The notes under the pieces: model-generated
What the model was told of the DNA's origin: nothing
Database searches by the model: none
What the model saw: only the letters and a program-made list of their open reading frames with translations
NCBI GenBank assembly: GCA_030602715.1
Contig: JAUVZD010000004.1
Coordinates: 1 to 64,000 of the forward strand
Length of the DNA: 64,000 bases
Source of the DNA: Candidatus Coatesiibacteriota bacterium
GTDB taxonomy: Bacteria; RBG-13-66-14; B26-G2; JAUVZD01
Direction of reading: 5' to 3'
In this document: one piece after another, positions 6,688 through 57,417 of the stretch
Numbering within the stretch: position 1 is the stretch's first letter
Layout: every line of letters begins with the position of its first letter
Position numbers and translations under genes: made by a program

Positions 6688-7317
6688 TTACTTAAACAAT
6701 GCCTTAATCTTTCCAAAGCTCTCCGATTGGATGTTGGTATAATCCGAGTAATCAATGTAGAGTTCCGGCCAATAGTCGGGGTAAGAACTGTTATCGGAGG
6801 AGAGATTGTAGCAATATGGATTAGATGGTTCGTCTTCAGCTCTCAGTTGGATCCCGTAATTTTCCAGGACACCATCCACCCATTGTTGCACTAAGTCGGT
6901 GACATCAAAATCCTGCCAACCAGCTCCATCGTAGTTGGTGATTGAATCAGCATCATCGGGGATATCCGGCTTGTTACTCCAGGTTACTACCATCTCCTCC
7001 CAGGACTCCAGATTATGATAGACCCCCCAGGGCTCGTCGCTGGGTGGATTGTACAAGACATAGAAAGACATAACCGCGGAGTTGATGACATAATAACCGG
7101 AGGGGTCAAATTCATCGGTCAAGTCAAACTCCACTATACCTCTAGCGATAACACCAGAACCCCAGTTGTCGGTAATGTAATCATGGGTACCCCAGTTACT
7201 GCTAGGCATCGTGTTCACGACCTGTGAATCCTTATTGGTAACTATGGTCACCTCATCGGCGTAAGACAACACCACCGCAAAAAGGAAAAGAGTGGTAAAA
7301 ATAGCTAGCACTTTCAT
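6688..7317 (-). CDS. Secreted DNRLRE-domain protein with C-terminal LGK-type tag
   Basis: A 209-residue exported protein. ATG 7317 lies eight bases from GGAGGT; a GTG at 7323 is too close to that site. A signal peptide (LAIFTTLFLFAVVLSYA) is followed by a DNRLRE-type beta-sandwich: GVIARGIVEFDLT, an AVMSFYVL strand, WEEMVVTWSNKP, then FDVTDLVQQWVDG and NYGIQLRAE. Such domains occur in extracellular surface proteins of many bacteria. The last residues, ESFGKIKALFK, match the tails of other secreted proteins here (43.0, 57.4 kb) and may be a sorting or anchoring signal. The ligand is unknown. Confidence 0.8.
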   Translation of the reverse strand: MKVLAIFTTLFLFAVVLSYADEVTIVTNKDSQVVNTMPSSNWGTHDYITDNWGSGVIARGIVEFDLTDEFDPSGYYVINSAVMSFYVLYNPPSDEPWGVYHNLESWEEMVVTWSNKPDIPDDADSITNYDGAGWQDFDVTDLVQQWVDGVLENYGIQLRAEDEPSNPYCYNLSSDNSSYPDYWPELYIDYSDYTNIQSESFGKIKALFK

Positions 7318-7452
7318 CCTCACTCACCTCCAAAATGATAGTTTTAAAATGTTTTAATGGAAATACTGTAAATCAATTACTGATATATTAAAAAGCAAAA
7401 CCCTGCACCCATTATAGGAATCCTCCCCCTTTTTATAACCCATTTTTAGTAT

Positions 7453-34232: not shown

Positions 34233-34261
34233 TTGACAAGCTGTGAGATTGAGTATATAAT
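34233..34261 (+). promoter_or_regulatory. Consensus sigma70 promoter for the 42-codon gene
   Basis: TTGACA (34233-34238), a 17-base spacer, TATAAT (34256-34261): a perfect match to consensus at optimal spacing. It drives the plus-strand small gene at 34306 and its -10 overlaps the -10 of a divergent promoter. Confidence 0.85.
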
Positions 34262-34282
34262 TAAAGCGATTTTTGAAAGCAA
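34254..34282 (-). promoter_or_regulatory. Divergent promoter for the AsmA-like gene
   Basis: On the minus strand TTGCTT (34277-34282), 17 bases, TATATA (34254-34259). Its -10 overlaps the plus-strand -10 at 34256-34261, so polymerase cannot occupy both. Confidence 0.55.
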
Positions 34283-34305
34283 CTGATTAGCAAAAGGAGG
34301 GTGCA

Positions 34306-34434
34306 ATGAGCAGGAAGATCGCCATTGCCATAGTAGTCGCTATCAGCTTGATGGTAGCCTTCGTAGTCCTGGCTACGAATGTCAATCTGGTCCCCAAGTC
34401 GTTGGGTGAAACCAAGGCGATATACGTAGAATAA
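34306..34434 (+). CDS. 42-residue membrane or secreted micro-protein
   Basis: A complete small gene: consensus promoter, AAAGGAGGG six bases before ATG 34306, 42 codons, TAA, and a perfect terminator 32 bases later. Residues 1-3 are basic (SRK), 4-24 are hydrophobic (IAIAIVVAISLMVAFVVLAT), and the tail reads NVNLVPKSLGETKAIYVE. The tail resembles the SLGKVKATFK-type ends of larger secreted proteins here, as if only the signal segment and C-terminal tag remain. It may stay as a one-helix membrane peptide or be secreted. It has no relative I recognise; expression should be high from the signals. Confidence 0.75.
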   Translation: MSRKIAIAIVVAISLMVAFVVLATNVNLVPKSLGETKAIYVE

Positions 34435-34465
34435 GCGAATCTACGCTCATCTCTAGGTTTCTCTT

Positions 34466-34488
34466 CCCCCCTCAATAGGGGGGTTTTT
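34466..34488 (+). terminator. Rho-independent terminator after the micro-protein
   Basis: CCCCCC (34466-34471) and GGGGGG (34478-34483) with a six-base loop, followed by five T and a further T-rich run. It closes the unit starting at the consensus promoter. Confidence 0.88.
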
Positions 34489-34532: not shown

Positions 34533-35195
34533 TCATATCAGCACTTCAAACAGACTGGAGATCGCATTCTTGGCAATAATATTCTTTGAAGCATAAATCG
34601 CCGGATTACTGGCGTTAAATTCGGGCTTCAGATTCACCTTAAGATTGAACAGGTCCACCAATCTCCAGGATACCGTCCGCCAATGCCGAGCCTTATTGCT
34701 ATCTTCCTCAATGGCAAATCCCAGCAGTAGATGGCGACCATCATAAATGACTTTTGTCTTTTGAGAGACTTTATAGTTGAAGTTCCTGGCAGACCATTCT
34801 CCGATATTCTCTAGCCGGGATACCTTTACCTCTAAATATGTGATATTGCCCCAACTGTCTCTTATTATCATATCCGGATACCCGGAACCCTTTGGGGGAA
34901 TAATATCCAGCCCTTCCTCCTCCAGATAATCTTTCAGCGCTCTTTCTATAGGCTGGCTTACACCATTCGGTCCATCTTTCACTATGGGATTTACATATAC
35001 CCGATTCATAAGCAAATCCGCAGATCTCTTTATTATCTCCAAAAATTCTTCATCCTCCTCCCTCTCTGTAAACTTTTCAAATTTTGTGTCCGTGGTCATC
35101 TCAATGACCACTGGAAAATCTAAATAGTTAATCGGCTCAAGCAACCTCCTCAATACGCTCCTCAGCTCCACATATTCTTCTTTGCCAGGTTCCAT
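34533..35195 (-). CDS. PD-(D/E)XK nuclease-like protein, copy A
   Basis: A 220-residue cytoplasmic protein that aligns without gaps with copy B next door (153 of 222 positions identical over the longer reading frames, by hand count). The nuclease core reads SGYPDMIIRDSWGNITYLEVKV: PD followed eleven residues later by ExK. This is the metal-binding and catalytic set of many restriction enzymes. ATG 35195 lies seven bases after AAGGTG; an ATG at 35201 is too close to it. Base use is closer to the host than in copy B and the methyltransferase. Probably a restriction endonuclease; no target can be given. Confidence 0.75.
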   Translation of the reverse strand: MEPGKEEYVELRSVLRRLLEPINYLDFPVVIEMTTDTKFEKFTEREEDEEFLEIIKRSADLLMNRVYVNPIVKDGPNGVSQPIERALKDYLEEEGLDIIPPKGSGYPDMIIRDSWGNITYLEVKVSRLENIGEWSARNFNYKVSQKTKVIYDGRHLLLGFAIEEDSNKARHWRTVSWRLVDLFNLKVNLKPEFNASNPAIYASKNIIAKNAISSLFEVLI

Positions 35196-35303
35196 AATCA
35201 TACACCTTTCTGGAAATATCGTAAGATTATTCTTTTTACGTCATAGATTAATTTTTTATCTAAAGAGGAGCAATACACATTAAAATTAAAGCTATAAATA
35301 TGG

Positions 35304-35966
35304 TCACATTAGTTTTTTATATGAACTAGAAATCGCATTCTTGGCAATAATATTCTTTGGAGAATAAATTTCAGTATTATCTGCGTTAAATTCTGGCTTT
35401 AAGTTAACCTTGAGTTTATATAGGTCCACCAGCTTCCAAAAAACAGTCCTCCAATGTCTAACCTCTCTACTATCCTCCTCAATGGCAAATCCTAAAAGTA
35501 GATGGCGACCGTCATAAATAACTCTTGTATTTTTGGATATTTTATAGAAAAAATTTCTCGCCGAAGCTTTCCGAATATTCTCTATCCTAGATACTTTTAC
35601 TTCTAAATAGGTTATACGACCATATTTATCTTTTAATATCATATCGGGATATCCAAAACCTTTTGGAGGCACAATCTCAAGTCCCTCCTCCTCAAGATAA
35701 TTTTTTAACGCCTTTTCTATAGGTTGACTCACATCATTTGGTCTGTTTCCAAATTTGGGATTTTTATATATTTGATTCATTAACAAATCCGCAGATTCCC
35801 TTATTATATCTAATAATTCCTTATCTCTCCTGCTTTTGGTAATCTTTTTAAACTTAGTATCAGTCGTCATTTCAATGACAACAGAAAAATCCAAATCTTC
35901 AATCGGTTCAAGAAGCCTCTTCAGAGTGTTTTTTAACTTGATATATCTTTCTTTACTTATTTCCAC
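35304..35966 (-). CDS. PD-(D/E)XK nuclease-like protein, copy B
   Basis: Paralogue of copy A with the same length and core (FGYPDMILKDKYGRITYLEVKV, PD...ExK at residues 107-125). Conserved segments outside the core include VVIEMTTDTKF, SADLLMN, VSQPIE, YLEEEGL, VIYDGRHLLLGFAIEEDS and KNIIAKNAISS, probably the specificity fold. GTG 35966 is six bases after GGAGG; the ATG at 35972 abuts that site. It starts right after the methyltransferase stop, so methylase and nuclease are in one operon. It is AT-rich, pointing to recent transfer. Why two nucleases persist is open. Confidence 0.75.
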   Translation of the reverse strand: MEISKERYIKLKNTLKRLLEPIEDLDFSVVIEMTTDTKFKKITKSRRDKELLDIIRESADLLMNQIYKNPKFGNRPNDVSQPIEKALKNYLEEEGLEIVPPKGFGYPDMILKDKYGRITYLEVKVSRIENIRKASARNFFYKISKNTRVIYDGRHLLLGFAIEEDSREVRHWRTVFWKLVDLYKLKVNLKPEFNADNTEIYSPKNIIAKNAISSSYKKLM

Positions 35967-35968
35967 TA

Positions 35969-37204
35969 TCATCCTCCTTTCTGAAATACTAGAATATACT
36001 CTCTTTGCATAACATTGTATAGCCCGAAGATAATCTTATCAATTGAATCAATTAATTTAAACCCTATATTCTCACATTGCTCAGTCGCAATATTTACTGT
36101 CGGCACCTCTTTACCTTCAAAAACCACATTTCCTAGGATAACAACACAATATCCTCCATTTTTTAAAACTCGCCACATCTCTTTATAACACTTATACATA
36201 TCTTCATTATACATCTTAAATTTTTCCTCTCCTCTCCCTCTAAGTCCAATAAAATCATTAAAGGCACTACTTATATCCACTCCCATAGCTTCCAAAGCAT
36301 GTTTATCGTTCAGCACATAATTTAGCGCGATTGAATATGGAGGAGAGGTAATAATTCCATCAATTGATGAGTCAGGTATATTTAGTTCTCTACTATCTCC
36401 CATTTCAATTTTTGAAGACGGTACTTTTTTTATAAACTTATCGACTACCTCATATAGGTCTTTAATAGACAAAAACATCTTCTCTATATTACTCAAAAAA
36501 GCGTTTTTATAATTCTTTCTTCTCCTTGCACTATCACTTTTTGCTATCATGTCGGCAATTTCAAAGAAACTACTTACATCTTTATCTTCTATTGCTTTGT
36601 AATCAATCTCCTCATATTGTACAGCTTTTTTTAACTCTTTAATTTTTCCAATATGTTTATACGAATTTACCTTCACCTTCGAAAGCAAAACACACAAAGG
36701 AGAGACATCAACTCCGACAAAATCAATTCCCTGAAGAAACGCCTCAACTGCTGATGTCCCACTCCCAACAAATGGATCAAGAAGAGTCTCACCCTCATTC
36801 AATCCAATAATGTTAATGACCGCCCTTATCATCTGAGGGTGGAACTTCCCCTTATAAGGGTAAAACCAATGTGTCAAATATTGATTAAAAGACCTAGTTC
36901 TATTATATTTTATAATAGCTGAATAGTCAGTCTTTATACCATCTATTACCTTAAAATACCCACTTCGCCTGGCAATTGCTTCAGTATCACTATGGTTTAA
37001 AATCTCAAAGCTCCTATAATCTTTGCAGGGAATAATCTCAACACCAAAGGACTCCAGCTCCAAAATACCTAGAATTAACTCGTAGATAAATTGAATATTA
37101 TCAAAAAAAACCGCCCGGTTTTTGTTATCTACGATATCAGAAACATCATTTCCCCTCTTTTTGGGAAAACCACTAAACAAACCATGTTGCCCCCCCCCGC
37201 TCAT
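35969..37204 (-). CDS. DNA methyltransferase (TSPPY type)
   Basis: A 411-residue amino-methyltransferase. The AdoMet-binding motif I is LLDPFVGSGTSAVEAF (143-150) and the catalytic motif IV is ITSPPYS (286-290); motif I precedes motif IV. TSPPY suggests N4-cytosine or N6-adenine methylation. A G9 run lies right after the start (codons 3-5), so a change of one G would shift the frame near residue 5; this looks phase-variable. Strongly AT-rich apart from that tract. ATG 37204 overlaps the stop of the upstream secreted-protein gene and is followed by the two nuclease-like genes. Confidence 0.85.
   Translation of the reverse strand: MSGGGQHGLFSGFPKKRGNDVSDIVDNKNRAVFFDNIQFIYELILGILELESFGVEIIPCKDYRSFEILNHSDTEAIARRSGYFKVIDGIKTDYSAIIKYNRTRSFNQYLTHWFYPYKGKFHPQMIRAVINIIGLNEGETLLDPFVGSGTSAVEAFLQGIDFVGVDVSPLCVLLSKVKVNSYKHIGKIKELKKAVQYEEIDYKAIEDKDVSSFFEIADMIAKSDSARRRKNYKNAFLSNIEKMFLSIKDLYEVVDKFIKKVPSSKIEMGDSRELNIPDSSIDGIITSPPYSIALNYVLNDKHALEAMGVDISSAFNDFIGLRGRGEEKFKMYNEDMYKCYKEMWRVLKNGGYCVVILGNVVFEGKEVPTVNIATEQCENIGFKLIDSIDKIIFGLYNVMQREYILVFQKGG
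37190..37198 (-). repeat. G9 homopolymer tract in methyltransferase start
   Basis: Nine consecutive C on the plus strand (G on the coding strand) at codons 3-5 of the methyltransferase. It is the longest homopolymer of G or C that I saw in the window. Such tracts are known slippage sites in phase-variable methyltransferases. Confidence 0.8.
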
Positions 37205-42976: not shown

Positions 42977-43603
42977 TTACTTGAAAGTAGCCTTAACCTT
43001 ACCCAGGCTAGTAGGCTGGACAGCCACACTAATGTAATTGCCCTTAACCTGATGAAGTGAGGTAATACCATAAGGAGTGTCGGAATCCCACGCACCGCTC
43101 CACCACGACCAGGTCCCTACGCCGGTATAGTCGGTCAAACCAGCACATCCAGGGTTTTCATAACCGAAGCATAGGAAATCACCATCGGCTATGACTATCC
43201 CCTCACCAGATACATCTACGTAGCTATATACTGTGGGTAAGTGTTCACTACCATCGGTATCTGCCGGTGTGAAGGAATCTGTATAGTCAGCGGTGTTCCA
43301 GTCGCCCGAAGGTGGATTAAGTCCGCCTACATCAACCCAAACATACCAATTAGAACTGGGACCAGCGATGGGCCAGGCGAGTTCAGTCAGCTCCACATCG
43401 TATCCTTCATTGTTCTGGACGGTGGTGATTAGGTGAGTTCCCCAACCGCTAGGTGTACCATAACCACTCGCCGGGGCCTCCATGGAAAGACCACTGTTCC
43501 ACTCCCAATCTTCGGGGAACGCAAACCGCTGTTCCACCTCTGCAGCGAATGTGAAACTAACCAACAAAAGAATAGCTGATAAACCGAATAACACGCTTCT
43601 CAT
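42977..43603 (-). CDS. Secreted protein with C-terminal LGKVKATFK tag
   Basis: A 208-residue exported protein with signal peptide LFGLSAILLLVSFTFAA and ATG 43603 after AAGGAGG. The mature part is rich in Gly, Trp, Tyr and Asp with a beta-sandwich look (GYDVELTELAWPIAGPSSNWYVWVDVGG; VSGEGIVIADGDFLCFGYENPG). Two Cys (about residues 146, 153) may form a disulfide. The tail TSLGKVKATFK matches the motif at the ends of the proteins encoded at 6.7 and 57.4 kb. It is transcribed from a perfect consensus promoter. No domain family is named with confidence; an extracellular adhesion- or envelope-type role is a guess. Confidence 0.7.
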   Translation of the reverse strand: MRSVLFGLSAILLLVSFTFAAEVEQRFAFPEDWEWNSGLSMEAPASGYGTPSGWGTHLITTVQNNEGYDVELTELAWPIAGPSSNWYVWVDVGGLNPPSGDWNTADYTDSFTPADTDGSEHLPTVYSYVDVSGEGIVIADGDFLCFGYENPGCAGLTDYTGVGTWSWWSGAWDSDTPYGITSLHQVKGNYISVAVQPTSLGKVKATFK

Positions 43604-56781: not shown

Positions 56782-57417
56782 ATGAAGAGGTTCTTGCTCT
56801 GCGCCGCCTTCACCTCGCTTTTGGCGACAAGCACCGTCGTTGCCGACGAGGTAATCATAGGCGACCAGGAGATGTCCTTTGATTCTCCGTTCTGCGGGAG
56901 TTGAGTGAGCTCCTATCGGGTACAGGAGCTTGTACTCGCAGAAGAGATTGACCTTGTGGGAACTATCAGCGACATCGCTTTTGATTTAGTTGACGGTCCC
57001 TACTACGACGCCCTGTTTTATTATTTTGAACTATACTTCTGCCACACCTCCCTTGACGAACTCACAGAGAATTTCAGCGACAACTATGACGGCAACACAC
57101 CTATTCTGGTCTCAGAGGCTGACCCCCTGAACATAACTCTCGCAGAGGACGGCTGGTTCTCCTTCCCCGACCCGGCGCCCTTTGAGTATGACGGCGAGAA
57201 CAACCTGATAGTTGAACTTCGCTGGATGGAAGACAATGGGTCGGATGTCTATAATTGGGGATTTGACTGCGGAAGCTATCGTGTTCTGGCGACGAAGTTC
57301 TACGACGGCGATACCGGCTTTCTAAGCACCAAAATGAACCGCATGCGCCTTATACTAGAGACGGATACCACCCTCCAGCCGGCTAGTCTGGGGAAAGTGA
57401 GGGGGAGGTATCGTTAG
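56782..57417 (+). pseudogene. Secreted C-terminal-tagged protein interrupted by in-frame TGA
   Basis: ATG 56782 with AGGAG six bases upstream opens a signal peptide (FLLCAAFTSLLATSTVVA) and the start of a beta domain (DEVIIGDQEMSFDSPFCGS). TGA (56902-56904) then stops the frame, and the same frame continues without another stop for 170 codons to a tail ASLGKVRGRYR. The downstream part is a beta-rich domain (ELVLAEEIDLVGTISDIAFDLVDGPYYDALFYYFELYF). So this is one gene split by one stop codon: a nonsense mutation, sequencing error, or recoding. A hairpin (7 base pairs plus wobbles) lies four bases after the TGA. Confidence 0.75.

Follow-up and report, generated by a model that had tools for sequence, protein, structure and literature searches.

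The window analysed here, a 64,000-nucleotide stretch of a Candidatus Coatesiibacteriota genome, encodes on its forward strand a 42-codon microprotein (34306-34434, TAA stop included) with the sequence MSRKIAIAIVVAISLMVAFVVLATNVNLVPKSLGETKAIYVE, the gene for which is present in one copy in this genome. It lies within a unit (34233-34488) that begins with a sigma-70 promoter matching the consensus at 12 of 12 positions (TTGACA at 34233-34238, a 17-nucleotide spacer and TATAAT at 34256-34261), continues with a Shine-Dalgarno sequence, AAAGGAGGG (34293-34301), four bases 5' of the ATG at 34306, and ends in an intrinsic terminator, CCCCCCT-CAAT-AGGGGGG, with a 7-bp stem and five T residues (34466-34488). 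These are the elements that the initial annotation had listed as a perfect promoter, a strong ribosome site, 42 codons, TAA and a terminator, and as signals suited to high expression; all of them are found. By a simple estimate, about 0.02 sites with 12/12 matches and 16-18 bp spacing would be expected by chance per 64 kb on both strands, and the promoter at 34233-34261 is the sole such site in a scan covering 10 kb. No structure surrounds the ribosome site in the leader of the window's copy. No Pfam or NCBIfam model matches the microprotein above its cut-off; this is a real gene that standard models miss, as had been expected of it.

The gene is conserved throughout most of the phylum. The first relative found was a 42-residue frame of the same layout and 38% identity in genome G006; profiles from this pair recovered full-length copies in G002-G005 and G009, and then in G007, G008 and G010-G013. 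A 13-row profile finds a single full-length copy in 13 of the 14 genomes of the phylum (three named records, of Candidatus Coatesbacteria, are within this set), with E values of 1e-20 to 3e-15. The orthologues are 41-43 residues long (exactly 42 in five relatives of the same class and in G009), and the residues fixed across them are M1, A23 and, within the tail motif, G and K. The genome without a detectable copy, G001 (91% complete, in 200 contigs), possesses the C-terminal tags described below. Among 372 genomes outside the phylum no full-length microprotein was found, and the weak partial matches there fall within long frames; a single Bacteroidales pattern match (L053) is a 20-codon frame and was taken as chance. 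In the G002/G003 pair dN is 0.09 and dS is 0.82, which shows purifying selection on the protein sequence of these close orthologues; remoter pairs of the class point in the same direction, and very close pairs within one genus have dN/dS near 1. The initial annotation had named loss of the reading frame in relatives, or conservation of RNA instead of codons, as observations that would speak against it; the frame is kept in 13 of 14 genomes, and dN and dS show the protein to be kept.

On one side of the gene the window encodes BamA (POTRA and Omp85 domains), OmpH/Skp and LpxD, and on the other a methylase island. The asmA-like and bamA neighbours named by the initial annotation are thus correct within the window, the AsmA-like assignment weakly so (a DUF748 match below cut-off), but this synteny is ruled out as a conserved feature by the differing neighbours in relatives: in G002-G006 the gene is flanked by a glycosyltransferase and a TPR/DUF3857/transglutaminase protein, and in the other family NusB and an M28 peptidase are nearby. 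Given the differing neighbours and its own Shine-Dalgarno sequence and signals, the gene behaves as its own transcription unit. A purine-rich Shine-Dalgarno sequence occupies a comparable position in all 13 orthologues, and clear terminators follow the gene in the window's genome and in G002-G006. Relatives have promoter-like sites of 8-10/12 in a similar place, most of the 8/12 scores being at chance level when taken alone, and a perfect 12/12 site occurs only in the window's genome. In four relatives (L042, L043, L044, L046) a hairpin, CCGAG...CTCGG, with a constant stem and a variable loop overlaps the Shine-Dalgarno sequence, where it could possibly exert translational control; it is absent from the window's copy. 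Adjoining the microprotein gene, the low-GC island (0.40-0.42; 34533-37204) encodes an N6/N4 DNA methylase along with two similar 222-residue proteins that match no Pfam family, and is probably a restriction-modification unit.

The initial annotation likened the tail of the microprotein to a C-terminal tag of larger secreted proteins, and three proteins of the window do end in such a tag: a 208-residue secreted protein (42977-43603, reverse strand) ending in ...AVQPTSLGKVKATFK (VAVQPTSLGKVKATFK) at the stop and a 211-residue DNRLRE/CBM96 protein (6688-7323, reverse strand) ending in SESFGKIKALFK, both recognized by profile match, and a 170-residue protein (56905-57417, forward strand) with a divergent tag, LQPASLGKVRGRYR, matched weakly (E 0.13). 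None of the three has the T that precedes K in the microprotein, so that a pattern with exactly this T finds none of them and a profile finds all three. The tag is a stretch of about 15 residues with the consensus, roughly, VxPxS(L/W)GxIKAx(F/Y)R-stop, carried by unrelated secreted proteins. The window's genome contains 24 matches with E < 0.001, the microprotein included; almost every one that was read ends at the stop, and the tagged proteins start with signal peptides. At the same cut, G002, G003, G004 and G006 contain from 113 to at least 150 matches each, and G005 contains 37. The motif occurs 210 times in 118 stretches taken from named genomes, and 206 of these occurrences lie within three residues of a stop, a ratio that is biased by the choice of stretches with a pattern containing the stop; the result for the window's own genome is unbiased. 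A signal peptide, crudely defined, is present in 113 of 155 tagged frames of at least 100 residues, versus 158 of 1042 untagged frames. Among the carriers are CBM96/DNRLRE, DUF6923, MAM-like and Ig-like proteins, and this variety indicates that the tag is a suffix rather than a family trait. Named records bearing it comprise three of Candidatus Coatesbacteria and two labelled Zixiibacteriota, and no Pfam or NCBIfam model and no publication describing it was found in the literature searched.

Some tags stand apart from any long frame. In L112 and L135 (and similarly in L088 and L125) the frame before the tag closes with an in-frame stop, or the tag makes up a very short frame by itself, as though a stop mutation had severed it or only read-through could reach it. 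Tag frames of 36-38 codons without a larger protein, resembling one another in DNA sequence, occur in L063 (in two places), L092 and L110, as though the tag were duplicated in the form of a DNA cassette; in L063 this arrangement is found 130 bases from another tag and directly before the next tagged gene.

Residues 24-42 of the microprotein, TNVNLVPKSLGETKAIYVE (34375-34431), score 16.2 bits against a tag profile built from cargo only, and none of 2000 shuffles equals this score. The profiles, one per lineage, were made from large tagged proteins with the microproteins left out, and for each of the 13 microprotein tails, scored with the better of the two lineage profiles, only 0-1 of 2000 shuffles are as good. 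In the second family all seven tails score better with the profile of their own lineage, as do three of the six tails of the first class. The cargo tag of the second family is mostly SWGxIK, with SWG or TWG in its microproteins; S(L,V,I,M)G is the form of tag and microprotein alike in the first class, a single PIG being the exception. The change from L to W that separates the tags of the two lineages is therefore also present in the microprotein, a co-variation that may represent a single evolutionary event. By these sequence comparisons the tail and the C-terminal tag are the same motif. They differ in what follows the motif Lys: five to eight residues in the microprotein, versus four (or five) in cargo of the window's genome and mostly three to five in cargo of the other family. 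A longer stretch would be expected of a protein that is recognized yet not handled as cargo.

The remainder of the microprotein is a short basic N-terminus and one hydrophobic segment (residues 5-23; 34318-34374) that could be either a membrane anchor or a signal peptide. Structure prediction gives a helix over residues 2-27, confident over the hydrophobic segment, and a tail of low confidence. The 19-residue Kyte-Doolittle hydrophobicity, used here as a proxy and not as a signal-peptide predictor, is 3.00 for the microprotein segments and 2.16 for cargo signal peptides (p 2e-6); the microprotein segment exceeds all 20 of the cargo signal peptides compared, and the groups do not overlap. The moderately hydrophobic h-region and polar c-region of the genome's own signal peptides are not found in the microprotein, and its greater hydrophobicity favours a membrane anchor. 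Cleavage is favoured by the small residues at positions 21 and 23, Ala23 being present in 13 of 13 orthologues and V, T or A at position 21 in all, in agreement with the -3/-1 rule. We weigh the anchor higher; with either fate, the tail should be exported.

On balance, the gene probably encodes a membrane-anchored microprotein, consisting of little but the tag, that binds the receptor or processing enzyme of tagged cargo as a docking partner or competitor. The tags on dozens of Sec-exported proteins are presumably read by a receptor or processing enzyme in the periplasm or outer membrane. The microprotein, which we infer to be made abundantly, would most likely be kept in the inner membrane with its N-terminus inside and its C-terminus outside, or else be cut by signal peptidase to free a tag peptide; its tail of about 19 residues, a copy of the sorting tag, would face the periplasm and engage the same receptor or enzyme as docking partner, placeholder or competitor, such that cargo would have to displace it. 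What the sequences establish is the gene, its conservation, the motif common to tail and tag, and their co-variation by lineage; the model goes beyond this in abundance, topology, receptor binding and role. It leaves room for the suggestion of the initial annotation that the peptide might be a decoy, regulator or reporter. Counted in favour of an anchored docking partner are the single copy in 13 of 14 genomes and in none of the 372 others, the near-fixed length, the free-standing gene, the selection at the protein level, the match of the tail to the tag profiles, the lineage forms that tail and tag share, the longer stretch after the motif Lys and the hydrophobic segment. Counted against it are the lack of the microprotein in G001, the presence of tags in G079 and G082 (below), which lie outside the phylum and in whose directly read parts no microprotein was found, the possibility that the change from L to W was one event, and the dN/dS near 1 within one genus.

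The strongest competing explanation, to which we give roughly one chance in five, accepts the motif and differs in the fate of the protein: signal peptidase I would cut after Ala23 and release a tag peptide of 18-20 residues, which would serve as sensor or signal or would itself be incorporated at the surface. The residues at positions 21 and 23 fit this explanation, as does the fact that from residue 24 on there is only tag, but the 19-residue segment is far more hydrophobic than cargo signal peptides and has no polar c-region. Considerably less probable is that the microprotein is simply the smallest cargo, a signal peptide plus a tag without a special role; such a minimal layout matches its signal-like N-terminus, and tags do occur on very diverse proteins, but cargo sets range from dozens to more than 100 proteins per genome whereas the microprotein is a near-fixed-length single copy in 13 of 14 genomes, and its tag is consistently different in length after the Lys. 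It is more improbable still that the gene encodes a small membrane protein belonging to some unrelated complex, with a tail that resembles the tag by chance: short single-span proteins are often accessory subunits, but 13 of 13 tails match independently built tag profiles and the switch from L to W is common to both. A small RNA gene with an incidental reading frame can practically be dismissed, for despite the compactness of the unit, about 250 bp from promoter to terminator, and the conserved leader hairpin in four relatives, it is contradicted by a protein kept phylum-wide while the DNA, leader and terminator sequences vary, by dN far below dS in G002/G003, by the lack of any Rfam match and by leaders that fold no better than shuffled sequences.

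The tag extends beyond the phylum. A variant, [ST]WGxxKx[LM][YF][RK] followed directly by the stop, was found in two non-phylum genomes: in G079, where 0.8 Mb contain nine proteins with C-termini like PASWGRVKALYR (L318, L303, L308, L311, L300, L322, L325 and L326 among the loci), and in G082, with five in the 0.4 Mb read (L285, L346, L354, L355 and L359), with beta-helix and NHL proteins among the carriers. In G079 the density of the motif in the last 12 residues is about 45 times that in the rest of the same frames. The microprotein was not found in the parts of G079 and G082 that were read directly, about 30% and 18% of the genome, respectively.

Like the signals of the type IX secretion system (T9SS) of Bacteroidota and relatives (TIGR04183), the tag marks the C-termini of many Sec-exported proteins within a single genome. 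T9SS type A signals fold into a domain of about 70-80 residues; the tag, in contrast, is about 15 residues long, matches no T9SS model and is found in genomes that also encode canonical T9SS signals. The SprA/Sov translocon (PF14349) is encoded in 11 of the 14 phylum genomes, including the window's own (L266, 13690-18354 on contig C3; TIGR04189, 260 bits against a cut-off of 200), and canonical type A signals (TIGR04183) are present in all 14, with 24-70 each and 36 in the window's genome, which weakens the notion that the tag is the phylum's T9SS signal. No match to TIGR04183 or the Por secretion tail was found in the three tagged window proteins or two microproteins (NCBIfam), in ten tagged proteins of the same genome (Pfam) or in six tagged G079 proteins (NCBIfam). 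Short T9SS signals of 43-55 residues with motifs B, D and E are known from Prevotella intermedia (PMC11969387), and even these greatly exceed the tag in length. The tag may be an additional T9SS signal and its cargo may be exported by T9SS, or it may be part of another machine.

Another class of C-terminal signals, LPXTG, PEP-CTERM and GlyGly-CTERM, consists of a motif, a transmembrane helix and a basic cluster and is served by sortase, exosortase and rhombosortase (PMC3237569). The tag shares with these the recurrence of a short signal on unrelated exported proteins, many to one with a presumed machine (PMC3237569, PMC1569441). Unlike them, tagged cargo has no C-terminal helix, the tag ending a few residues before the stop with no hydrophobic stretch or basic cluster beyond it, and the microprotein has its helix ahead of the motif. 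The microprotein itself resembles small bitopic membrane regulators and subunits in its length of about 40 residues, single hydrophobic segment, strong expression signals and tendency to escape annotation; none of these is known to bear a copy of a sorting tag used throughout a genome. We consider it possible, at somewhat less than an even chance, that there is a sorting system apart from T9SS and the sortases, spread over at least three lineages and based on a tag of about 15 residues without a helix or folded domain, which one phylum pairs with a single-copy membrane microprotein that copies the tag and gates or docks at its receptor.

The tag is previously undescribed and points to an uncharacterized protein-sorting system with a built-in mimic. 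More than once a short C-terminal tag has been the route to a new sorting enzyme, as with sortase, exosortase and rhombosortase. With up to about 150 tagged proteins per genome of 2-3 Mb, much of the surface or secreted proteome of these uncultured bacteria may need a machine that has yet to be named. The microprotein offers a single-copy handle on this machine: a pull-down with it would be expected to retrieve the tag receptor, and its distribution across the phylum provides a profile for locating co-distributed genes.
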